This document shows positions 12,192-50,993 of a DNA stretch of 64,000 bases, piece after piece. The notes below the pieces were generated by a model. That model was not told the DNA's origin. It did no database searches and worked only from the letters and a program-made list of their open reading frames with translations. Source of the DNA: Spirochaetaceae bacterium bin103. Its GTDB lineage: Bacteria; Spirochaetota; Spirochaetia; SZUA-6; Bin103. A program made the position numbers and the translations under genes. Location of the stretch: positions 1-64,000 of the forward strand of contig MPNH01000008.1 in NCBI GenBank assembly GCA_002238925.1, written 5' to 3'. Numbering within the stretch: the first letter of the stretch is position 1; each line of letters begins with the position of its first letter.

Positions 12192-13220
12192 GTGATAACG
12201 GTTGAAGGCGTTTCCAAGCGCTACGGCCAGCATCTTGCCGTCGACGACATCAGCTTTCGGGTCGACGCCGGCGAGGTGGTCGGGTTTCTCGGCCCGAACG
12301 GGGCCGGCAAGTCGACCACCATGAACATCATTACCGGATACCTGTCGGCCACCGCCGGCAGTGTGTCGGTGGACGGCTTCGACGTGCTCGAGGATCCCGA
12401 CCAGGTGAAGCGGCGTGTCGGCTACCTGCCCGAGTTGCCGCCGCTCTATCTCGACATGACGGTGCGCGAGTACCTGCGCTTCGTGGCGCGCCTCAAGAAG
12501 GCGGACCGCAGCACCGTGGTGCAGCAGCAGGAGCGCATCCTGGAGCTGGCCGGTATAGGGCACGTGCGCAACCGGCTGATCAAGAACCTGTCCAAGGGCT
12601 ACCGCCAGCGCGTCGGCCTGGCGCAGGCACTGGTCGGCAGTCCGCGCGTACTGATTCTGGACGAACCCACCATCGGTCTGGATCCGCACCAGATCATCGA
12701 GATCCGCAACCTGATCCGCGAACTCGGCCACGAGCACACCATTATCCTGTCGTCGCACATCCTGCCCGAGGTGAGCGCGGTGTGCGACCGGGTCATCATC
12801 ATCAACCGCGGCAAGCTGGTGGCCTCCGACACCACCGAGAACCTCGGCAAGCGCCTGCACGACAACAGCGAATTCCGGTTGCGCGTGGCCGGTTCGGAGG
12901 CGGCGGCGCTGGCCGCGCTGACCGGCGTGGCGGGCGTGAACGAGGTCAGCGCGCAGGGCACGGTGGAGCAGGGCACGGTCGACCTGCGCGTGGAGACCGC
13001 CGCCGGGGCCGATCCGCGGCGCGCCATCTTCCACGCGTTGAGCGAGGCGGACCTGCCGATCTACCTGATGACGGCGATGGACTACACGCTCGAGGAGATC
13101 TTCCTGCAGCTCACCACACAGGACGCCGCCGGCGGTGCCGCCCCGGAATCCGGGGACAACGGTTCCGGCGGCGCACCGGACGCACCGGACGCACCCGATG
13201 TCGGTGGGAGTGACGCCTGA
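12192..13220 (+). CDS. ABC transporter ATPase of a Gld-type ABC-2 exporter
   Basis: The GTG at 12192 is preceded by a GGAGG at 12178-12182, which fixes the start (342 residues); the frame stays open upstream without a ribosome site. Walker A is GPNGAGKSTT, the signature is LSKGYRQRVGLAQAL, Walker B is VLILDEPTIGLD, and the H-loop is ILSSHILPE. The C-terminal 90 residues form the usual small domain, ending in a Gly/Asp/Pro-rich tail. It resembles GldA of the gliding-motility GldAFG exporters, which also occur in non-gliding bacteria. The next two genes encode the permease and the GldG-like subunit. The substrate is unknown. Confidence 0.88.
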   Translation: MITVEGVSKRYGQHLAVDDISFRVDAGEVVGFLGPNGAGKSTTMNIITGYLSATAGSVSVDGFDVLEDPDQVKRRVGYLPELPPLYLDMTVREYLRFVARLKKADRSTVVQQQERILELAGIGHVRNRLIKNLSKGYRQRVGLAQALVGSPRVLILDEPTIGLDPHQIIEIRNLIRELGHEHTIILSSHILPEVSAVCDRVIIINRGKLVASDTTENLGKRLHDNSEFRLRVAGSEAAALAALTGVAGVNEVSAQGTVEQGTVDLRVETAAGADPRRAIFHALSEADLPIYLMTAMDYTLEEIFLQLTTQDAAGGAAPESGDNGSGGAPDAPDAPDVGGSDA

Positions 13221-33063: not shown

Positions 33064-34156
33064 CGTGGCGGAAACGGGGACCGACCTGCACCCTGAAGCG
33101 GCCAGCCAGATGGCCGCTGCGTGCGGCGACCTGCTGGACAGCCTGGATGCCGTCCAGCGCGCCCGCGCCACCTTTCCCTACCTCGACGGCGAGCGCCTGT
33201 TTTGGTACTACCCGCCGCTGAACCGGCACGGCCTGCCGCTGCTGGCGATGACCGACGAGCAGCAGGGGCTGGCGAGGCGCGTGCTGGAGGCGGCGCTGTC
33301 GGAGAAGGGCTACGAGGCGGCGTGCGCGATTATCGACCACGAACTGATCCTCCGCGAGCAGGAGCGGGCGGACGGTCAGGTGAGTTGGGCGCGCGACCCG
33401 GGGCGCTACTACTTTACGCTGTTCGGGGATCCGCACGGCACCGATCCCTGGGGCTGGCGTGCCGAGGGGCATCACCTGTCGCTGCATTTCAGCATCTGGG
33501 GCGAGCGCGTCATTTCGACCACGCCGTTTTTCTTCGGTTCGAACCCGGCCGAGGTGCTGCACGGCCCCAAGCGCGGCCTGCGCATCCTGGCGCGCCGTGA
33601 GGACCTGGCGTTTCAGCTCATGGACAGCCTCGATCAGAGCCAGCGCTCGCGCGCCGTGATCTACGACAAGGCGCCCTGGGACATCCTGACCTACAACAGC
33701 ACGCGCGCCGTGCTGCCGCGCGAAGAGGGGCTGGCGGGAGACCGCCTCGACGCCGCGCAACAGGAGATGCTCACCGCGCTGGTGGAAACCTACGTGAACC
33801 AGGTGCGCAGCGACGTCGCCCGCCACAAGCTCCAGCACCTGCGCCGCGCCGCCCCACAACGGGAGATCCCCCCCGGTGTGGGAAAACCCTGCGGGAACGG
33901 GGCGCGCAGCGCCGCCCCCCGCCACAAGCTCGAGCACCTGCGCCGCGACGGCCTCGGCCATCTGCGCGTGGCGTGGGCCGGTCCGGTTGCGCGCCGCGAG
34001 GGGCACTACTACCGGATCCACGGCGGCAACTTCCTGGTCGAGTTCGACAACTGCCAGAACGACGCCAATCACGTCCATTCGGTGTGGCGCGACGTGGACA
34101 ACGACTTCGCCCAGGACGTGCTGCGCGATCACCTGCTGCTCTACCACACCCACTGA
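33056..34156 (+). CDS. DUF3500 family protein (contains a 99-bp in-frame repeat artefact)
   Basis: A DUF3500 protein, 366 residues as written. Family motifs include RATFPYLDGERLFWYYPP, GRYYFTLFGDPHGTDPWGWR, EGHHLSLHFSI, TPFFFGSNPAEVLHGP and FDNCQNDANHVHSVWRD. The function of the family is not established; the conserved His/Asp residues suggest metal binding. Residues near 255-290 contain a repeated RHKL(Q/E)HLRR motif around a Pro/Gly-rich stretch absent from relatives. At the DNA level this is a 99-bp imperfect direct repeat (33761-33845 against 33860-33944) with a degraded 5' end; without it the protein is 333 residues, a normal family length. GTG starts occur at 33056 and 33065. Confidence 0.85.
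   Translation: MADVAETGTDLHPEAASQMAAACGDLLDSLDAVQRARATFPYLDGERLFWYYPPLNRHGLPLLAMTDEQQGLARRVLEAALSEKGYEAACAIIDHELILREQERADGQVSWARDPGRYYFTLFGDPHGTDPWGWRAEGHHLSLHFSIWGERVISTTPFFFGSNPAEVLHGPKRGLRILARREDLAFQLMDSLDQSQRSRAVIYDKAPWDILTYNSTRAVLPREEGLAGDRLDAAQQEMLTALVETYVNQVRSDVARHKLQHLRRAAPQREIPPGVGKPCGNGARSAAPRHKLEHLRRDGLGHLRVAWAGPVARREGHYYRIHGGNFLVEFDNCQNDANHVHSVWRDVDNDFAQDVLRDHLLLYHTH
33761..33944. repeat. 99-bp imperfect direct repeat inside the DUF3500 gene
   Basis: Bases 33803-33845 recur almost exactly 99 bases later. Going upstream, the second copy loses identity progressively while staying colinear with 33761-33802, with many changes to C or G. This is what a noisy read end inserted by an assembler would look like. 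The length is a multiple of three, so the frame survives. Confidence 0.8.
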
Positions 34157-37284: not shown

Positions 37285-38237
37285 GCCAACTCCAGGTCGG
37301 CGAACTCGAACACCCGCTCGGGCGCCCGGTACGCCGCGGCCGGACTGCCTGCGCCCCGCAGCCGCGCCGGCAACTCGGCCGCGGCGGCGCCGGCAGCGCC
37401 GGCCAGCGCGCTCAGCTTGCCGGCCAGCGGGACCACCGCGCGGCCGGCGGTAACGTCGCAGCCCGCGCTCGCGATGCGGTCGCCGATGGCGGCATAGATG
37501 GCGCGCGCGGCGCGAATCGACAGGGCCGCGCGCCAGGGCAGGGCAATGAAACCCGCGTCCGCGGCGCCGTAGAAGCGCCCGGCGAGTGCGAGCATCTCGG
37601 TGACCACGGCCCGCAGCGGGTCACGCGCGGAGTCCGGAAACGGTGCGCCGAGTGCGGCGCGGAGGTCGCCGAGCCCGACCCGCTCCAGCCACGTGGCCGG
37701 CAGGTAGAGCCGTCCGAGGCGCCAGTCCTCCACCACGTCGCGGCAGATGTTGGTGAGTTGCATCGCCACGCCCAGCCGTGCCGCCGCCTGCAGCGCGGCG
37801 TCGTCGCGCAGCGTCAGGACGTGCGACATCATCAGGCCGACCGTGCCCGCGACGCGGTAGCAGTAATGCAGCAGAGCGGGGAGATCGTCGTACGTCGCCT
37901 GCCCCAGGTCCATGCGCATCCCGGCCAGCAACTCGCGCGGATAGTGCGGCGGCATCCCGGTGGCGTTCATCACGGTGCCGAATGCGTCGAGGACCGGGTC
38001 GCCGGTGGCCACGCCGCCGGTTATCCGCTTCAGCTCGCCGTACAGGCCGGCAAGCGCCGCCGGCCGAGGCCCCCCCGGCCCGCGCCCGGGGGGGCCCGGG
38101 CGGAGGGCGTCTCCGCCCCGCCGGCACCAGGCGTATACCACCAGTGCCGCGTGCCGGCTGTGGCGCGGCAGCAGGCGGGCGGCGAGCGCAAAGCTCTTCG
38201 AGCCGGCGGCGATGCGGCGCCGGCACTCGGCCGCCAC
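37281..38237 (-). CDS. crtB: Phytoene synthase CrtB (5' end disrupted in the sequence)
   Basis: CrtB condenses two geranylgeranyl diphosphates to phytoene. The intact frame runs from a GTG at 38237 (318 residues): SKSFALAARLLP, LVVYAWCRR, DLGQATYDDLPALLHYCYRVAG, and the second Asp-rich motif NICRDVVEDWRLGRLYLP. The native start is most likely the ATG at 38382, in an ATGA overlap with the crtI stop, encoding MRRPEQPPIAAAVAAE; a 109-bp insert breaks that frame, and 38382 to 37281 minus 109 is exactly 331 codons. The first Asp-rich motif expected after YAWCRR is replaced by GGDALRPG in a pure G/C tract, another suspect stretch. Confidence 0.85.
   Translation of the reverse strand: MAAECRRRIAAGSKSFALAARLLPRHSRHAALVVYAWCRRGGDALRPGPPGRGPGGPRPAALAGLYGELKRITGGVATGDPVLDAFGTVMNATGMPPHYPRELLAGMRMDLGQATYDDLPALLHYCYRVAGTVGLMMSHVLTLRDDAALQAAARLGVAMQLTNICRDVVEDWRLGRLYLPATWLERVGLGDLRAALGAPFPDSARDPLRAVVTEMLALAGRFYGAADAGFIALPWRAALSIRAARAIYAAIGDRIASAGCDVTAGRAVVPLAGKLSALAGAAGAAAAELPARLRGAGSPAAAYRAPERVFEFADLELA
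38068..38096. repeat. Perfect G/C palindrome within crtB
   Basis: Eleven-base arms (GGCCCCCCCGG and its complement) enclose a seven-base loop. The palindrome covers the codons where CrtB proteins carry the first DxxxD metal-binding motif. It may be a real hairpin or a sequence-quality artefact. Confidence 0.75.
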
Positions 38238-38382
38238 CGCCGCGGCGATCGGCGGCTGGTCGGGGGGGCTCCTTGCGCCCAGTCCCCCCGGACCCGGGGC
38301 GCGGGGGGGGGCGGCGGGCGATGGGGGCCCGGCCCTCGGCCGCCACCGCCGCGGCGATCGGCGGCTGTTCGGGGCGTCTCAT
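38227..38382. repeat. 109-bp imperfect direct repeat at the crtB start
   Basis: A segment of about 30 identical bases at 38227-38258 recurs from 38336 to 38367. Bases 38259-38330 remain colinear with 38368-38439 (the crtB start and crtI end) but with many substitutions to G or C. Removal of 109 bases fuses MRRPEQPPIAAAVAAE to CRRRIAAGSKSF in one frame. Confidence 0.85.
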
Positions 38383-39899
38383 GGCGCCAAGTCCTCCAGT
38401 ACGAGGTGCGCGGTGGCGCGCGCCGAGTTGATCACGCCCGGTATGCCGGCGCCCGGATGGGTGCCGGCGCCGACCAGGTAGAGCCGGTCGATGCGGGAGT
38501 CGCGGTTGTGGGTGCGGAACCAGGCGCTCTGGGTAAGGGTGGGCGCCAGCGAAAACGCGCTGCCCTGGTAGGCGTTGAGCTCGGAGCGGAAGTCGAGCGG
38601 CGTCATCCAGCGGCGCACCACGATGTGGCGGCGCACGTCGGGCAGCACGCGCTCCACGTCGGCGAGGATGCGGTCGGCATAGTGCGGCGCGACATGGTCC
38701 CACTCCAGGGCGGCGTTGCCGAGGTGCGGCACCGGAGCAAGGACGTAGAATGCGCCGTGACCCGGCGGCGCCAGGGACGGATCGGTGATGTGCGGCGCAT
38801 GCAGGTAGAGCGAGAAGTCTTCCGGCAGCCGGGCGCCGTGAAAGATGTCGGCGAGCAGCTCCCGGTAGCGTGGCCCGAACAGTACCGAGTGATGCACCAC
38901 CTGGCCGCGGTAGTCGCGGTCGGTGCCGAAGTAGAGCACGAACAGCGACATCGACCACGCTGCCCGCTGCAGCCGGGTTTGGCGCCGCGCCGCGGCCGGG
39001 GTGCCTCGGTAGAGCACGGCGTAGGTATGGTGCACGTCGGCGTTGGACACCACGGCGTCGAACGGTTCGCGGTGCCCGGACCCGGCGCGCGAATAGGCCA
39101 GGTGGTGGACCGTCCGCCCCGCGGCGCCTGCGAGCGTCGCGTGCTGCACGGGACTGGCCAGCAGGAGACGGCCGCCGAGGTCGACGAACAGGCGCACCAG
39201 GGCGCGCACCAGGACGTTGACGCCGCCGCGCGGATAGAACACGCCCCAGCGCCGTTCGAGATAGTGGATGAGGGTATAGATGGCGCTGGTCTCGAACGGA
39301 TTTCCCCCTACCAGGAGCGTGTGGAAGCTGAGCGCCTCGCGAATCCGTTCGTCGCCGATGTAGCGCGCCACCGTTCGGTACACCGAGCGGTCGGCGCGCA
39401 GGCCGGCGAGCTGCGGCGCCACCCGCACCATGTCCCAGAAGCGCAGGAACGGGGTGGCGGCCAGCTCCTCGTAGCCGGTGGCGAACACGCGCCGCGAGTA
39501 GTCCAGGAAGCGGCGGTAGCCGTCGCGGTCGTCCGGATTGCGGCGCCCGATCTGTGCTGCCAGCGCTGCGCCATCGGCGCAATAGTCGAAGCGGTCGCCG
39601 TCCGGCCACAACAGCCGGTAGAACGGGTCGACCGGCAGCAGCTCGACCCGGTCGCGGAGGTTTGCTCCGGCCACGGCGAACAGGTCCTCCAGCAGGGTCG
39701 GATCGGTTATCACCGTCGGGCCCATGTCGAACGTGAAACCCCGGTGCCGCCAGACGTACGCCCGGCCGCCCGGCTGCTCGCGCGCCTCGAACAGCGTGGT
39801 TGCCAGGCCCGCCGCCTGCAGCCGGATGGCGGCCGCAAGCCCGCCGAAACCGCTGCCGATCACCGCGACGCGCGCGCTGTGTTCCGCGGCGGCGGTCAC
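38379..39899 (-). CDS. crtI: Phytoene desaturase CrtI
   Basis: CrtI (506 residues) introduces double bonds into phytoene to give lycopene. The N-terminal FAD motif is VAVIGSGFGGLAAAIRLQAAG, then EAREQPGGRAYVWRHRGFTFDMGPTVITDP, which is the standard CrtI opening. FLVGGNPFETSAIYTLIHYLE and the C-terminal LYLVGAGTHPGAGIPGVINSA complete the flavin site. The GTG start at 39899 overlaps the crtY stop (GTGA), and the stop overlaps the crtB ATG. It is long enough to be fully functional. Confidence 0.95.
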   Translation of the reverse strand: MTAAAEHSARVAVIGSGFGGLAAAIRLQAAGLATTLFEAREQPGGRAYVWRHRGFTFDMGPTVITDPTLLEDLFAVAGANLRDRVELLPVDPFYRLLWPDGDRFDYCADGAALAAQIGRRNPDDRDGYRRFLDYSRRVFATGYEELAATPFLRFWDMVRVAPQLAGLRADRSVYRTVARYIGDERIREALSFHTLLVGGNPFETSAIYTLIHYLERRWGVFYPRGGVNVLVRALVRLFVDLGGRLLLASPVQHATLAGAAGRTVHHLAYSRAGSGHREPFDAVVSNADVHHTYAVLYRGTPAAARRQTRLQRAAWSMSLFVLYFGTDRDYRGQVVHHSVLFGPRYRELLADIFHGARLPEDFSLYLHAPHITDPSLAPPGHGAFYVLAPVPHLGNAALEWDHVAPHYADRILADVERVLPDVRRHIVVRRWMTPLDFRSELNAYQGSAFSLAPTLTQSAWFRTHNRDSRIDRLYLVGAGTHPGAGIPGVINSARATAHLVLEDLAP

Positions 39900-41261
39900 G
39901 GCGCCGCGCCCGGGCCGGTGCCGGCGCCCGCGGTGGGCCAGCGGCGCAGCGACAGCCCGCGCGGCGGCCGCCCGCCGAGCAGGCGCGCCTTGTCCGCGCC
40001 ACTCAGGCGCATGCTGAAGAAGCGGCGAATGGTGGGCTCCGGCAGGCGGAAGAAGCGTTCGAAAATGTTGCGGCGCGCGGCCGGCGGGTAGGCTCGGAAC
40101 AGCAGCCGATTGAGCAGGCAGCAGAACCGGGCGCGCCGCCGCAGGGCGCGGGGCGGGGCGGCCCGCCCGGGCGCCGGGGCCGCGGGGGGGGGGGGGGGGG
40201 AACAGCAGCGGATGGAGCAGGCAGCAGACCCGGGCGCGCCGCTGCAGGTCGCGGCGCGCGGCGGCCGCCGCGGCGCCGAGGCCGGCGAGGGGCGTGGTGG
40301 CGACCAGGGCGGCGAGCTCGGCCGCCTGGGGCAGCGAGTAGCCGGTACCGGGATGAAACCAACCGCCGCCGTAGCCGCCGCGCACCACTCCGGCGTCCAA
40401 CTGCGCCCCCGGCGCCGGCATCCGCCACGGCATCGGCAGGACGCCGCGTTCGCTGCGGACCACCGCCCGCGGGCGCCAGCCGTGGCGCTGCATCCACGCC
40501 GCTATGCCGGCGCGCCGCTGCGCCACGTCGAGGTCCGGCCCATCCGAGAAGCTGGTGTCCTCGACCAGGGCGCGGTGCGGTGAGAGCGGCAGCACGTACA
40601 TGAAGCGGAACCCGTCCTGCTGAGGGACGGTGGCGTCCATCACCAGCGGCCGGCGCAGGCCGTGCGGAGCGGCCAGGGTGACCTCCTCGCCGTAGAACTT
40701 CTGGTAGCCGCACTCGGCGCCGGGCGGGTCCGCGCCGCGCGCGTCGATCACCGCGTGCCCGTCCACCCGGCGCCCGTCATCGAGAAGCGCCCGCCCGGAC
40801 TCGAGCCGGGCCACGGTTGCCTGTTCCCACACCAGCGCGTCCGCGCGTCCGGACAGCAGGCCGCGCACCACCCGGCGCAACCGCGCGCTGGTAATCATGA
40901 GGTAGGGGGTCGCCAAGCGCCGGCGATAGCCGGGAAAGCGGACTTCGTAGCTGTCCCAGCGCCGGCTCACCAGCGGTGCCAGCTGCCGGCTCATGGCGGG
41001 CGACAGATCGCTCTCATAGCAGCACCAGGTGTGATTGCCGCCGATCGCGGCGCGTTCCAGCAGCGCCGTGCGCGGCGTCGGTTGCCCGTCCGGCAAGCCG
41101 GGTGGCGCGAACAGCGCCGCGACGATCAGGGCATTCTGCAGCCCGCCTCCACACAGAACGAGGTCCACGGTGTGCGGCTCGGGGTGGGGTTCGGGAGCGT
41201 GCCGGCCGCCCGCGTGCGGCCGGTTGCGCGGTGCCCGGGGCACGGAACCGCGTGCCGCCAC
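39896..41261 (-). CDS. crtY: Lycopene beta-cyclase CrtY (frame broken by a 103-bp repeat)
   Basis: CrtY cyclises lycopene ends to beta-ionone rings. From the GTG at 41261: VDLVLCGGGLQNALIVAAL (dinucleotide fold), GGNHTWCCYESDL, AVIDARGADP, FMYVLPLSPHRALVEDTSF and GYGGGWFHPGTGYSLPQA are all lycopene cyclase motifs. After CCLLHPLLF the frame runs into a C-rich tract. The true C-terminus (CLLNRLLFRAYPPAARRNI, IRRFFSMRLSGADKARLLGG) lies in a shifted frame and ends at 39896, overlapping the crtI GTG. The span of 1,366 bases minus the 103-bp repeat is exactly 421 codons, a normal CrtY length. I therefore regard the gene as intact in the organism. Confidence 0.85.
40097..40263. repeat. 103-bp imperfect direct repeat with a run of 17 G in crtY
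   Basis: About 50 bases at 40097-40150 recur at 40200-40253 with a few substitutions. Bases 40150-40200 stay colinear with 40253-40303 but drift into G, ending in 17 consecutive G (40184-40200). Fading into poly-G at the 3' side is typical of low-signal read tails in two-colour sequencing. Confidence 0.85.
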
Positions 41262-49072: not shown

Positions 49073-49717
49073 TCAGGCTTCCGGGTCCACGGCGACGATG
49101 CCGGGCAGCTGGCGCAGGGCACCGGCGGCGTCGAGGCCGTAGCCGGCTACCCACACGTCCGGGATCCGGAAGCCGATCAGGTCGGGAGCGGCCTTGGCGC
49201 GCTGCGCGAGCGTTTCCGGCGAGGGGTCGGAGAGCTGCTTGTCGAGCAGGACGCACACCTGCACGTGGCGCACGCCCCAACCGGCCATCCGGTCGCGTAG
49301 CGCGCACAGCGTAAAACCATGGTCCAGGATGTCGTCCACGAGCAGCATGGAGCGGCCCACCACGTCGGCGGGTTGCAGGTCGATCTGCACGCGCCGCTGG
49401 TCGCCGCCGGCGCCGAGGGCTTCGCCGTAGGTGCTGGTCTTGGCAAACTCGAAGCGGACGTCGAGCGTGCTCACGGCGCCAAGCGCGCGGGCGAGATCGG
49501 CGGCGAACATGAACGCGCCGTTGAGTACCGGGGTAATTACCAGCTCGCCGTCCGGAGGATGCCGGCGAGCCAGCTCGCGCGCCATGTCGGCGATGCGGCG
49601 CTGCAACACCCGCTCCGGAATCAGCACCCGCGACACGCGCCCGCGGAACCGTGGCGGCACGCGGGTGGGCGCGGCGGGCGGGTGGTCGGGATTGGCCTCG
49701 CCCCCGGTCTCCGCCAC
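49073..49717 (-). CDS. hpt: Hypoxanthine phosphoribosyltransferase (5' end disrupted in the sequence)
   Basis: Salvage enzyme converting hypoxanthine or guanine to the nucleotide. RVLIPERVLQRRIADMARELA, VITPVLNGAFMFAADL, the PRPP loop MLLVDDILDHGFTL and WVAGYGLDAAGALRQLPGI are diagnostic. The frame as written starts at a GTG (49717) inside a repeat. The likely native start is the ATG at 49878, in an ATGA overlap with the leuB stop, encoding MTELGEHTAATGMSG; a 92-bp repeat separates it from the body. The distance 49878-49073 minus 92 is exactly 238 codons. A Pro/Ala-rich N-terminal extension of about 45 residues would then precede the usual start. Confidence 0.88.
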   Translation of the reverse strand: MAETGGEANPDHPPAAPTRVPPRFRGRVSRVLIPERVLQRRIADMARELARRHPPDGELVITPVLNGAFMFAADLARALGAVSTLDVRFEFAKTSTYGEALGAGGDQRRVQIDLQPADVVGRSMLLVDDILDHGFTLCALRDRMAGWGVRHVQVCVLLDKQLSDPSPETLAQRAKAAPDLIGFRIPDVWVAGYGLDAAGALRQLPGIVAVDPEA

Positions 49718-49807
49718 GCCCGCGCCCGCGCCCGGCGCAACGCGGGGGGCACGGGGGGGGGCGCGGCGGCCGGGTGTCCGGGCTCGGCACGGCCGCCGGT
49801 CTCGGCA
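49650..49807. repeat. 92-bp imperfect direct repeat at the hpt start
   Basis: Bases 49650-49715 recur at 49742-49807 without gaps; both copies encode AETGGxAxPxHPxAAPxxVPP-like peptides in different frames relative to hpt. The stretch between drifts to G and C, with a run of nine G at 49753-49761. Same pattern as in crtB, crtY and the DUF3500 gene. Confidence 0.8.
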
Positions 49808-49874
49808 AGGCCGTGCTCCGGAACGACGACCGGACCGCTCATGCCGGTCGCCGCCGTGTGCTCACCGAGTTCGG

Positions 49875-50993
49875 TCATCGGCCGCGCTCCGCGCCGCCGG
49901 CGTTCCCGTTGGCGAGTACGCCTTGCGCCACCGCGTCGCCGAATTGGGCGGTGGAGAGCGGTTCCGGTCCGCCCGCGGCAGCCAGGTCGACCGTTACCCG
50001 GCCCGCGTCCAGGGCGCTCCATAGTGCGTCCCAGACGGCGCCCGCTTCGGCGCCGAGGCCGAAACTCTTCTCCAGCAGGAGCGCGGCGCTGCCGATCAGA
50101 GAGAACGGATTCGCCACGCCCCTTCCGGCAATGTCGGGCGCCGACCCGTGTACCGCTTCGTAGTAACTCTTCTCCGGGCCGACGCTGGCGCTGCACATCA
50201 GTCCGAGGGAGCCGACGATACCTCCCGCCTGGTCGCTGAGAATGTCGCCCTGCATGTTGTCGAGCAGCATCACGCCGTTGAACTGCGCCGGGTCCACCGC
50301 CAATTGGAAGGCCGCGTTGTCCACCAGGATCGACGAGTAGTCGACCGCCGGAAAACGCGGTGCCAGCTCTTCGACCACCTCCTCCCAGAGCCGCGAGGTA
50401 GCCAGGATGTTGGACTTGTGCACCACGGTCAGGTGGCAACCGCGCGCCTTCGCCTCGGCGAACGCTACTTCGGTGACCTGTTCGATCTGCGCGCGCGAGT
50501 AGTGGCAGTCGTCGCTGGCGTAACGCCCCTGGGTGTGCTCGCCCTCAACCTTCTCGCCGAAATAGATGCCGCCCACCAGCTCGCGGATCATCAGGATGTC
50601 GACGCCGTCACCGATTATCTCCGGGCGCAGCGGCGACAGCCCGGCGAGGCGGCGCGGCAGCACCACCGGGCGGAAGTTGGCGAACGTATTGTAGCGCTGG
50701 CGCAACTCCAGAATCGCGAGCTCGGGGCGCTGATCCACCGGTATGGCGCGCATGTCGTCGAGCGCCACTCCGGCCGGGCCTTTCAGGATGGCGTCGGCGT
50801 CGTCGCACACCGCCTTCGATTCGGCCGGAAAGGCGGCGCCGCCGGCAAACCAGGCACCGGCGCCGAATGGCGTGCGCCGATAGTCGAACCGGTGGCCGAA
50901 TCGTGCAGCGACCGCATCGAGTACCTTCAAGGCCTCGCCGACGATCTCGGGGCCGATGCCGTCGCCTTCGAGGACGGCGATAGAAGCGTTCAT
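49875..50993 (-). CDS. leuB: 3-isopropylmalate dehydrogenase LeuB
   Basis: LeuB (372 residues) oxidatively decarboxylates 3-isopropylmalate in leucine synthesis. IAVLEGDGIGPEIVGEALKV, ELAILELRQRYNTFANFRPV (substrate Arg residues), ELVGGIYFGE, VVHKSNILATSRLW, the Asp cluster VDNAAFQL...MLLDNMQGDILSD and EAVHGSAPDIAGRGVANPF are all conserved. The ATG at 50993 is the proper start. The stop overlaps the hpt ATG. Other leucine genes are not nearby. Confidence 0.96.
   Translation of the reverse strand: MNASIAVLEGDGIGPEIVGEALKVLDAVAARFGHRFDYRRTPFGAGAWFAGGAAFPAESKAVCDDADAILKGPAGVALDDMRAIPVDQRPELAILELRQRYNTFANFRPVVLPRRLAGLSPLRPEIIGDGVDILMIRELVGGIYFGEKVEGEHTQGRYASDDCHYSRAQIEQVTEVAFAEAKARGCHLTVVHKSNILATSRLWEEVVEELAPRFPAVDYSSILVDNAAFQLAVDPAQFNGVMLLDNMQGDILSDQAGGIVGSLGLMCSASVGPEKSYYEAVHGSAPDIAGRGVANPFSLIGSAALLLEKSFGLGAEAGAVWDALWSALDAGRVTVDLAAAGGPEPLSTAQFGDAVAQGVLANGNAGGAERGR

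Follow-up and report, generated by a model that had tools for sequence, protein, structure and literature searches.

The closest described system is the homotype false duplication recognized by the Vertebrate Genomes Project, in which sequence left under-collapsed as a result of sequencing errors is written twice; such duplications often fall at contig boundaries and are about a read in length (PMC8081667, PMC9516828). They are known from vertebrate, largely long-read assemblies with read depth as the defining test, whereas the case described here, at the start of an hpt-like gene, is known from sequence alone; the pairs that we describe also differ in being short (about 50–120 nt), in lying head to tail inside bacterial draft contigs, and in displaying a mirror-image gradient of errors. 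Kelley and Salzberg (2010; PMC2864568) reported false segmental duplications in which duplicate overlapping contigs are set side by side and left unmerged. The hpt case is similar in its unmerged overlapping duplicates, but the cause in that study is haplotype divergence in diploids, whereas the copies here differ by apparent base-calling noise. Illumina errors increase toward read ends and in GC-rich sequence (PMC3622629), and those trends with position and base resemble the ones seen at hpt, although that work concerns single-base miscalls and the present case concerns false joins. A literature search on false tandem joins in metagenome assemblies returned nothing specific to bacteria, and one on gap closing returned only general assembly papers and the Vertebrate Genomes Project paper.

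The locus lies in a 64,000-nt stretch (positions 1 to 64,000 of contig MPNH01000008.1; hereafter ‘the window’) of the genome of Spirochaetaceae bacterium bin103 (G000), which we compared with a same-genus genome (G002, the sister) and a same-family relative in five contigs (G003). Two gapless, head-to-tail copies of a 92-nt unit occupy the beginning of the hpt-like gene (Table 1). They match at 66 of 92 positions (72%), with 26 mismatches and no indels; this is the best ungapped 92-nt match in the region, and 1000 dinucleotide-shuffled versions of the region gave a mean of 44.2 and a maximum of 55. The two copies are therefore related far beyond what chance would give for this region. Across the initial 66 nt of the copies in coding orientation, 51 positions match, and the peptides encoded there (LAETGGRAEPGHPAAAPPPVPP and VAETGGEANPDHPPAAPTRVPP) are identical at 15 of 22 residues and are read in different frames, because 92 leaves a remainder of 2 when divided by three. 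A run of nine C residues (G9 on the plus strand; 49753–49761) is found within the noisy part of the first copy. In the sister, the gene (C116:240–875) holds the unit in a single copy; no such repeat was found at the hpt locus of G003, and the hpt stretch gave no match when searched against plasmids. An earlier note on this DNA had described a decayed 92-bp repeat whose gapless 66-base copies encode near-identical peptides in different frames. The repeat, its gapless alignment and the difference in frame are all borne out; ‘near-identical’ overstates a match of 15 in 22, and the notion of decay is at odds with the mirror-image, G/C-ward errors and the recurrence along the contig described below.

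Table 1. Coordinates of features at the hpt-like locus and of related pairs in the window.
Feature	Position	Strand	Remarks
First copy in coding direction	49719..49810	-	Start of unit looks genuine (CCTTGCC, as in sister); later part noisy
Second copy in coding direction	49627..49718	-	Initial ~20 nt noisy; last part exactly as in sister (CGGTTCCGCGGGCGCGTGTCGCGGG)
Approximate false junction of two read tails	49718..49719	.	Inferred position; exact point blurred by noisy sequence
hpt-like phosphoribosyltransferase core, 214 aa, intact	49073..49717	-	Pfam PF00156, 4.1e-17, above cut-off
leuB-like isopropylmalate dehydrogenase, 372 aa plus stop, intact	49875..50993	-	Pfam PF00180, 4.1e-98
Likely native hpt start ATG	49876..49878	-	ATGA with leuB stop; GGAG 8 nt upstream; arrangement also in G002
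Alternative in-frame ATG (MSGPVVVPEHGLA; MSGPV...)	49840..49842	-	Left edge of stretch conserved with G002
GTG chosen as hpt start by ORF calling in current assembly	49715..49717	-	Noisy start of second copy
Second noisy pair, period 109	38204..38413	.	crtI/crtB boundary; single copy in G002
Third noisy pair, period 103	40096..40292	.	Far part of crtY; G17 run at junction (40184-40200); single copy in G002

The position of the differences within the copies was determined for ten adjacent pairs on the contig with sister alignments (those at 38204, 40096 and 49627, and seven at 68–106 kb), all of which had been picked as adjacent repeats independently of their error pattern. Differences between the left copy on the plus strand (copy A) and the right copy (copy B) were arbitrated by the sister. 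Copy A carries 58 deviations, at a median position of 0.79 and with none (0/58) in the initial 40% of the unit, whereas copy B carries 50, at a median position of 0.21 and with 39 of them in that same part (Mann-Whitney p = 6e-14, with mismatches treated as independent). The direction is the same in all eight pairs that show both kinds of deviation, and G or C accounts for 101 of the 108 deviant bases. Each assembled copy is thus genuine on its outer side and noisier toward the junction: in the left arm, mismatch to the sister is 0.5 next to the hpt junction and declines to 0.05–0.18 farther away, with comparable drops at other events. For the hpt event taken by itself, 7 of the 26 differences are undecided owing to divergence of the sister, and the right-arm pattern is blurred.

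These observations bear directly on whether the copies stem from a genuine tandem duplication, by replication slippage for instance, and have since decayed, with hpt now translated from a new start in the second copy. Small tandem duplications occur in bacteria, the two copies here are adjacent and clearly related, and the assembly leaves the hpt core intact. Decay, however, gives no reason for mirror-image errors that leave each copy wrong mainly on the side facing the junction, nor for deviations that run almost entirely to G or C, or for an hpt pair without indels; differences between true duplicates would be spread regardless of the junction, and here they are not. We consider such a history very improbable, and grant equally little credence to its corollary that a genuine lineage-specific 92-bp duplication shifted the hpt start codon and uncoupled hpt from leuB. 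The polarity and the G/C bias, which are indirect signs taken from the sequence and not from base qualities, instead suggest that the copies differ by sequencing errors and not by true variants, as in homotype false duplications. Because complementary halves of the copies are wrong, because the errors run toward G and C, and because the defect recurs along the contig, we interpret the differences as sequencing noise and not as mutational decay. The 92-base repeat almost certainly represents a false tandem duplication, produced when a GC-rich genome was sequenced with short reads and assembled, and absent from the organism itself. The other hallmark of homotype duplications, one true copy against two in the assembly, may be reflected in the single copy carried by the same-genus sister.

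The hpt pair has counterparts elsewhere in the window. The pair at 38204 disturbs the start of crtB, and the assembly reads crtY and crtI as a single frame of 1037 aa. At least six further pairs (periods 68–122), each present only once in the sister, lie on the same contig (C41) at about 68.5–106 kb. When the contig is aligned to G002, the alignment is interrupted at eight of nine other pairs tested, the two sides of the break drawing on the same sister bases; the pairs at 71142 and 73710 align poorly to the sister on their right side. Pairs at 78529 and, in the window, at 33743 lack a sister anchor and were left out of the confirmed set. The latter, an in-frame adjacent repeat with 77% identity and a period of 99, a multiple of three, is probably a true coding repeat. 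About nine such pairs on a single 115-kb contig, all of them single in the sister, also speak against a real duplication at hpt. C41 appears to be enriched in such pairs relative to the other contigs sampled. Near 65.5 kb the sister is ~104 nt longer at an alignment break, for which either a natural deletion or a sequence-losing join is possible.

The recurrence of the pairs bears equally on whether the repeat might be a functional GC-rich element, phase-variable or regulatory, whose copy number switches the N-terminus of the hpt product. A period of 92, not being a multiple of three, would indeed allow one or two copies to toggle the frame from ATG 49878. At 72% identity, however, the copies differ too much to slip readily, no repeat is present in the sister, and unrelated genes (crtY and the crtI/crtB boundary) are hit in the same manner; we regard this proposal as scarcely credible.

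Runs of G or C are a further common element. The window contains three runs of at least 8 nt (38303–38311, 40184–40200 and 49753–49761), and all three are inside the three pairs. The sampled stretches of G000, 1.54 Mb out of 4.78 Mb, contain 65 such runs; 25 of them (38%) coincide with an adjacent near-repeat, compared with 4% of random sites. G003 has a single run of this length in 400 kb; the near absence from that relative of the G/C runs carried by the pairs is another point against a real duplication. Adjacent pairs in the control genomes are mostly in-frame coding repeats, and the features that discriminate are the period modulo three, the base content and the polarity. The density of tandem pairs was a weak discriminator when used by itself (25, 22 and 13 per Mb by TRF across the genomes) because coding repeats are common, and GC-rich 50-mer patches failed to separate G000 from G002.

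We believe that these features may be explained by a failed overlap. Since the copies are right on the outside and wrong in the middle, two reads running toward each other, both of failing quality at the 3′ end, appear to have been joined end to end. Reads entering a GC-rich spot from both sides would lose base quality toward their 3′ ends, and the overlap between the resulting error-laden tails could then go unrecognised; a short spurious match in the assembler, or in a read-merging, gap-closing or contig-tip-overlap step, would join the tails, so that the ~92 bases covered from both sides would be written twice. Gapless copies with errors that rise toward read ends and in GC-rich sequence are consistent with Illumina-type error (PMC3622629). 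The repeat is almost certainly not a biological feature, and the underlying biology is ordinary: the real hpt would contain one copy, most likely starting at ATG 49878.

Several observations bear on that start codon. On the minus strand the leuB-like gene (ending at 49875) is followed by the hpt-like gene. The leuB-like product scores 329.1 bits against TIGR00169 (2.8e-98; cut-off 353.2). The best NCBIfam match of the hpt product is TIGR01203 (1.1e-29, 103.4 bits, below the cut-off of 150); by this measure it appears HPRT-like, and any particular substrate is putative. Positions 49073 to 49878 span 806 nt, and removal of 92 nt leaves 714 nt, or 237 codons and a stop, a reading that is open, with no internal stops, at all six crossover points tried. 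As assembled, the frame from ATG 49878 departs from hpt and stops at 49621, because 92 is not divisible by three. That ATG (49878–49876) overlaps the leuB stop TGA (49877–49875) as ATGA. In the sister, the end of leuB and the start of hpt overlap in the same way, with GGAG eight bases upstream, both as in the window, and its hpt reads open through 243 aa (MTDPAP...MSGPVIVPEHGLA...PPAAPSRLPPRFRGRVSRVLIP). This protein matches the one-copy reading of the window, the two aligning through MSGPV(V/I)VPEHGLA and PPRFRGRVSRVLIP.

The comparison with the sister supports the view that the extra 92 nt are foreign to the hpt gene, and hpt is probably translationally coupled to leuB via the ATGA overlap. 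Where ORF calling places the GTG, the sister and the first copy both have CTT; GTG 49717 is an artificial start. ATG 49878 is most likely the true start and is the best candidate, being well supported; ATG 49842 is a less likely candidate, given the poor conservation of the dozen residues that follow ATG 49878. The subtraction of 92 from 806, the native start overlapping leuB and an artificial GTG start had all been proposed in the earlier note; the first is correct, and the other two are supported here. A second hpt-like gene in G000 (C22:37469–38044), 42% identical to the first, also has a counterpart in G002.

False joins of this kind are detectable without reads, and in GC-rich drafts they lead to shifted frames, false starts (as at hpt) and false gene fusions (as for crtY and crtI). 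As a quality check, a run of at least eight G or C residues beside an adjacent 50–120-nt near-repeat with mirror-image errors flags a false join, and the annotation of crtY, crtI, crtB and hpt should carry flags at the joins. The sister is itself a fragmented draft with a similar density of G/C runs (53 per Mb), and is probably affected by such joins elsewhere; its hpt contig, which is collinear with the window, has no G/C run of at least 8 nt. An adjacent, out-of-frame pair with a period of 83 at positions 12836–12998 of locus L074 in G002 may be one such artefact.
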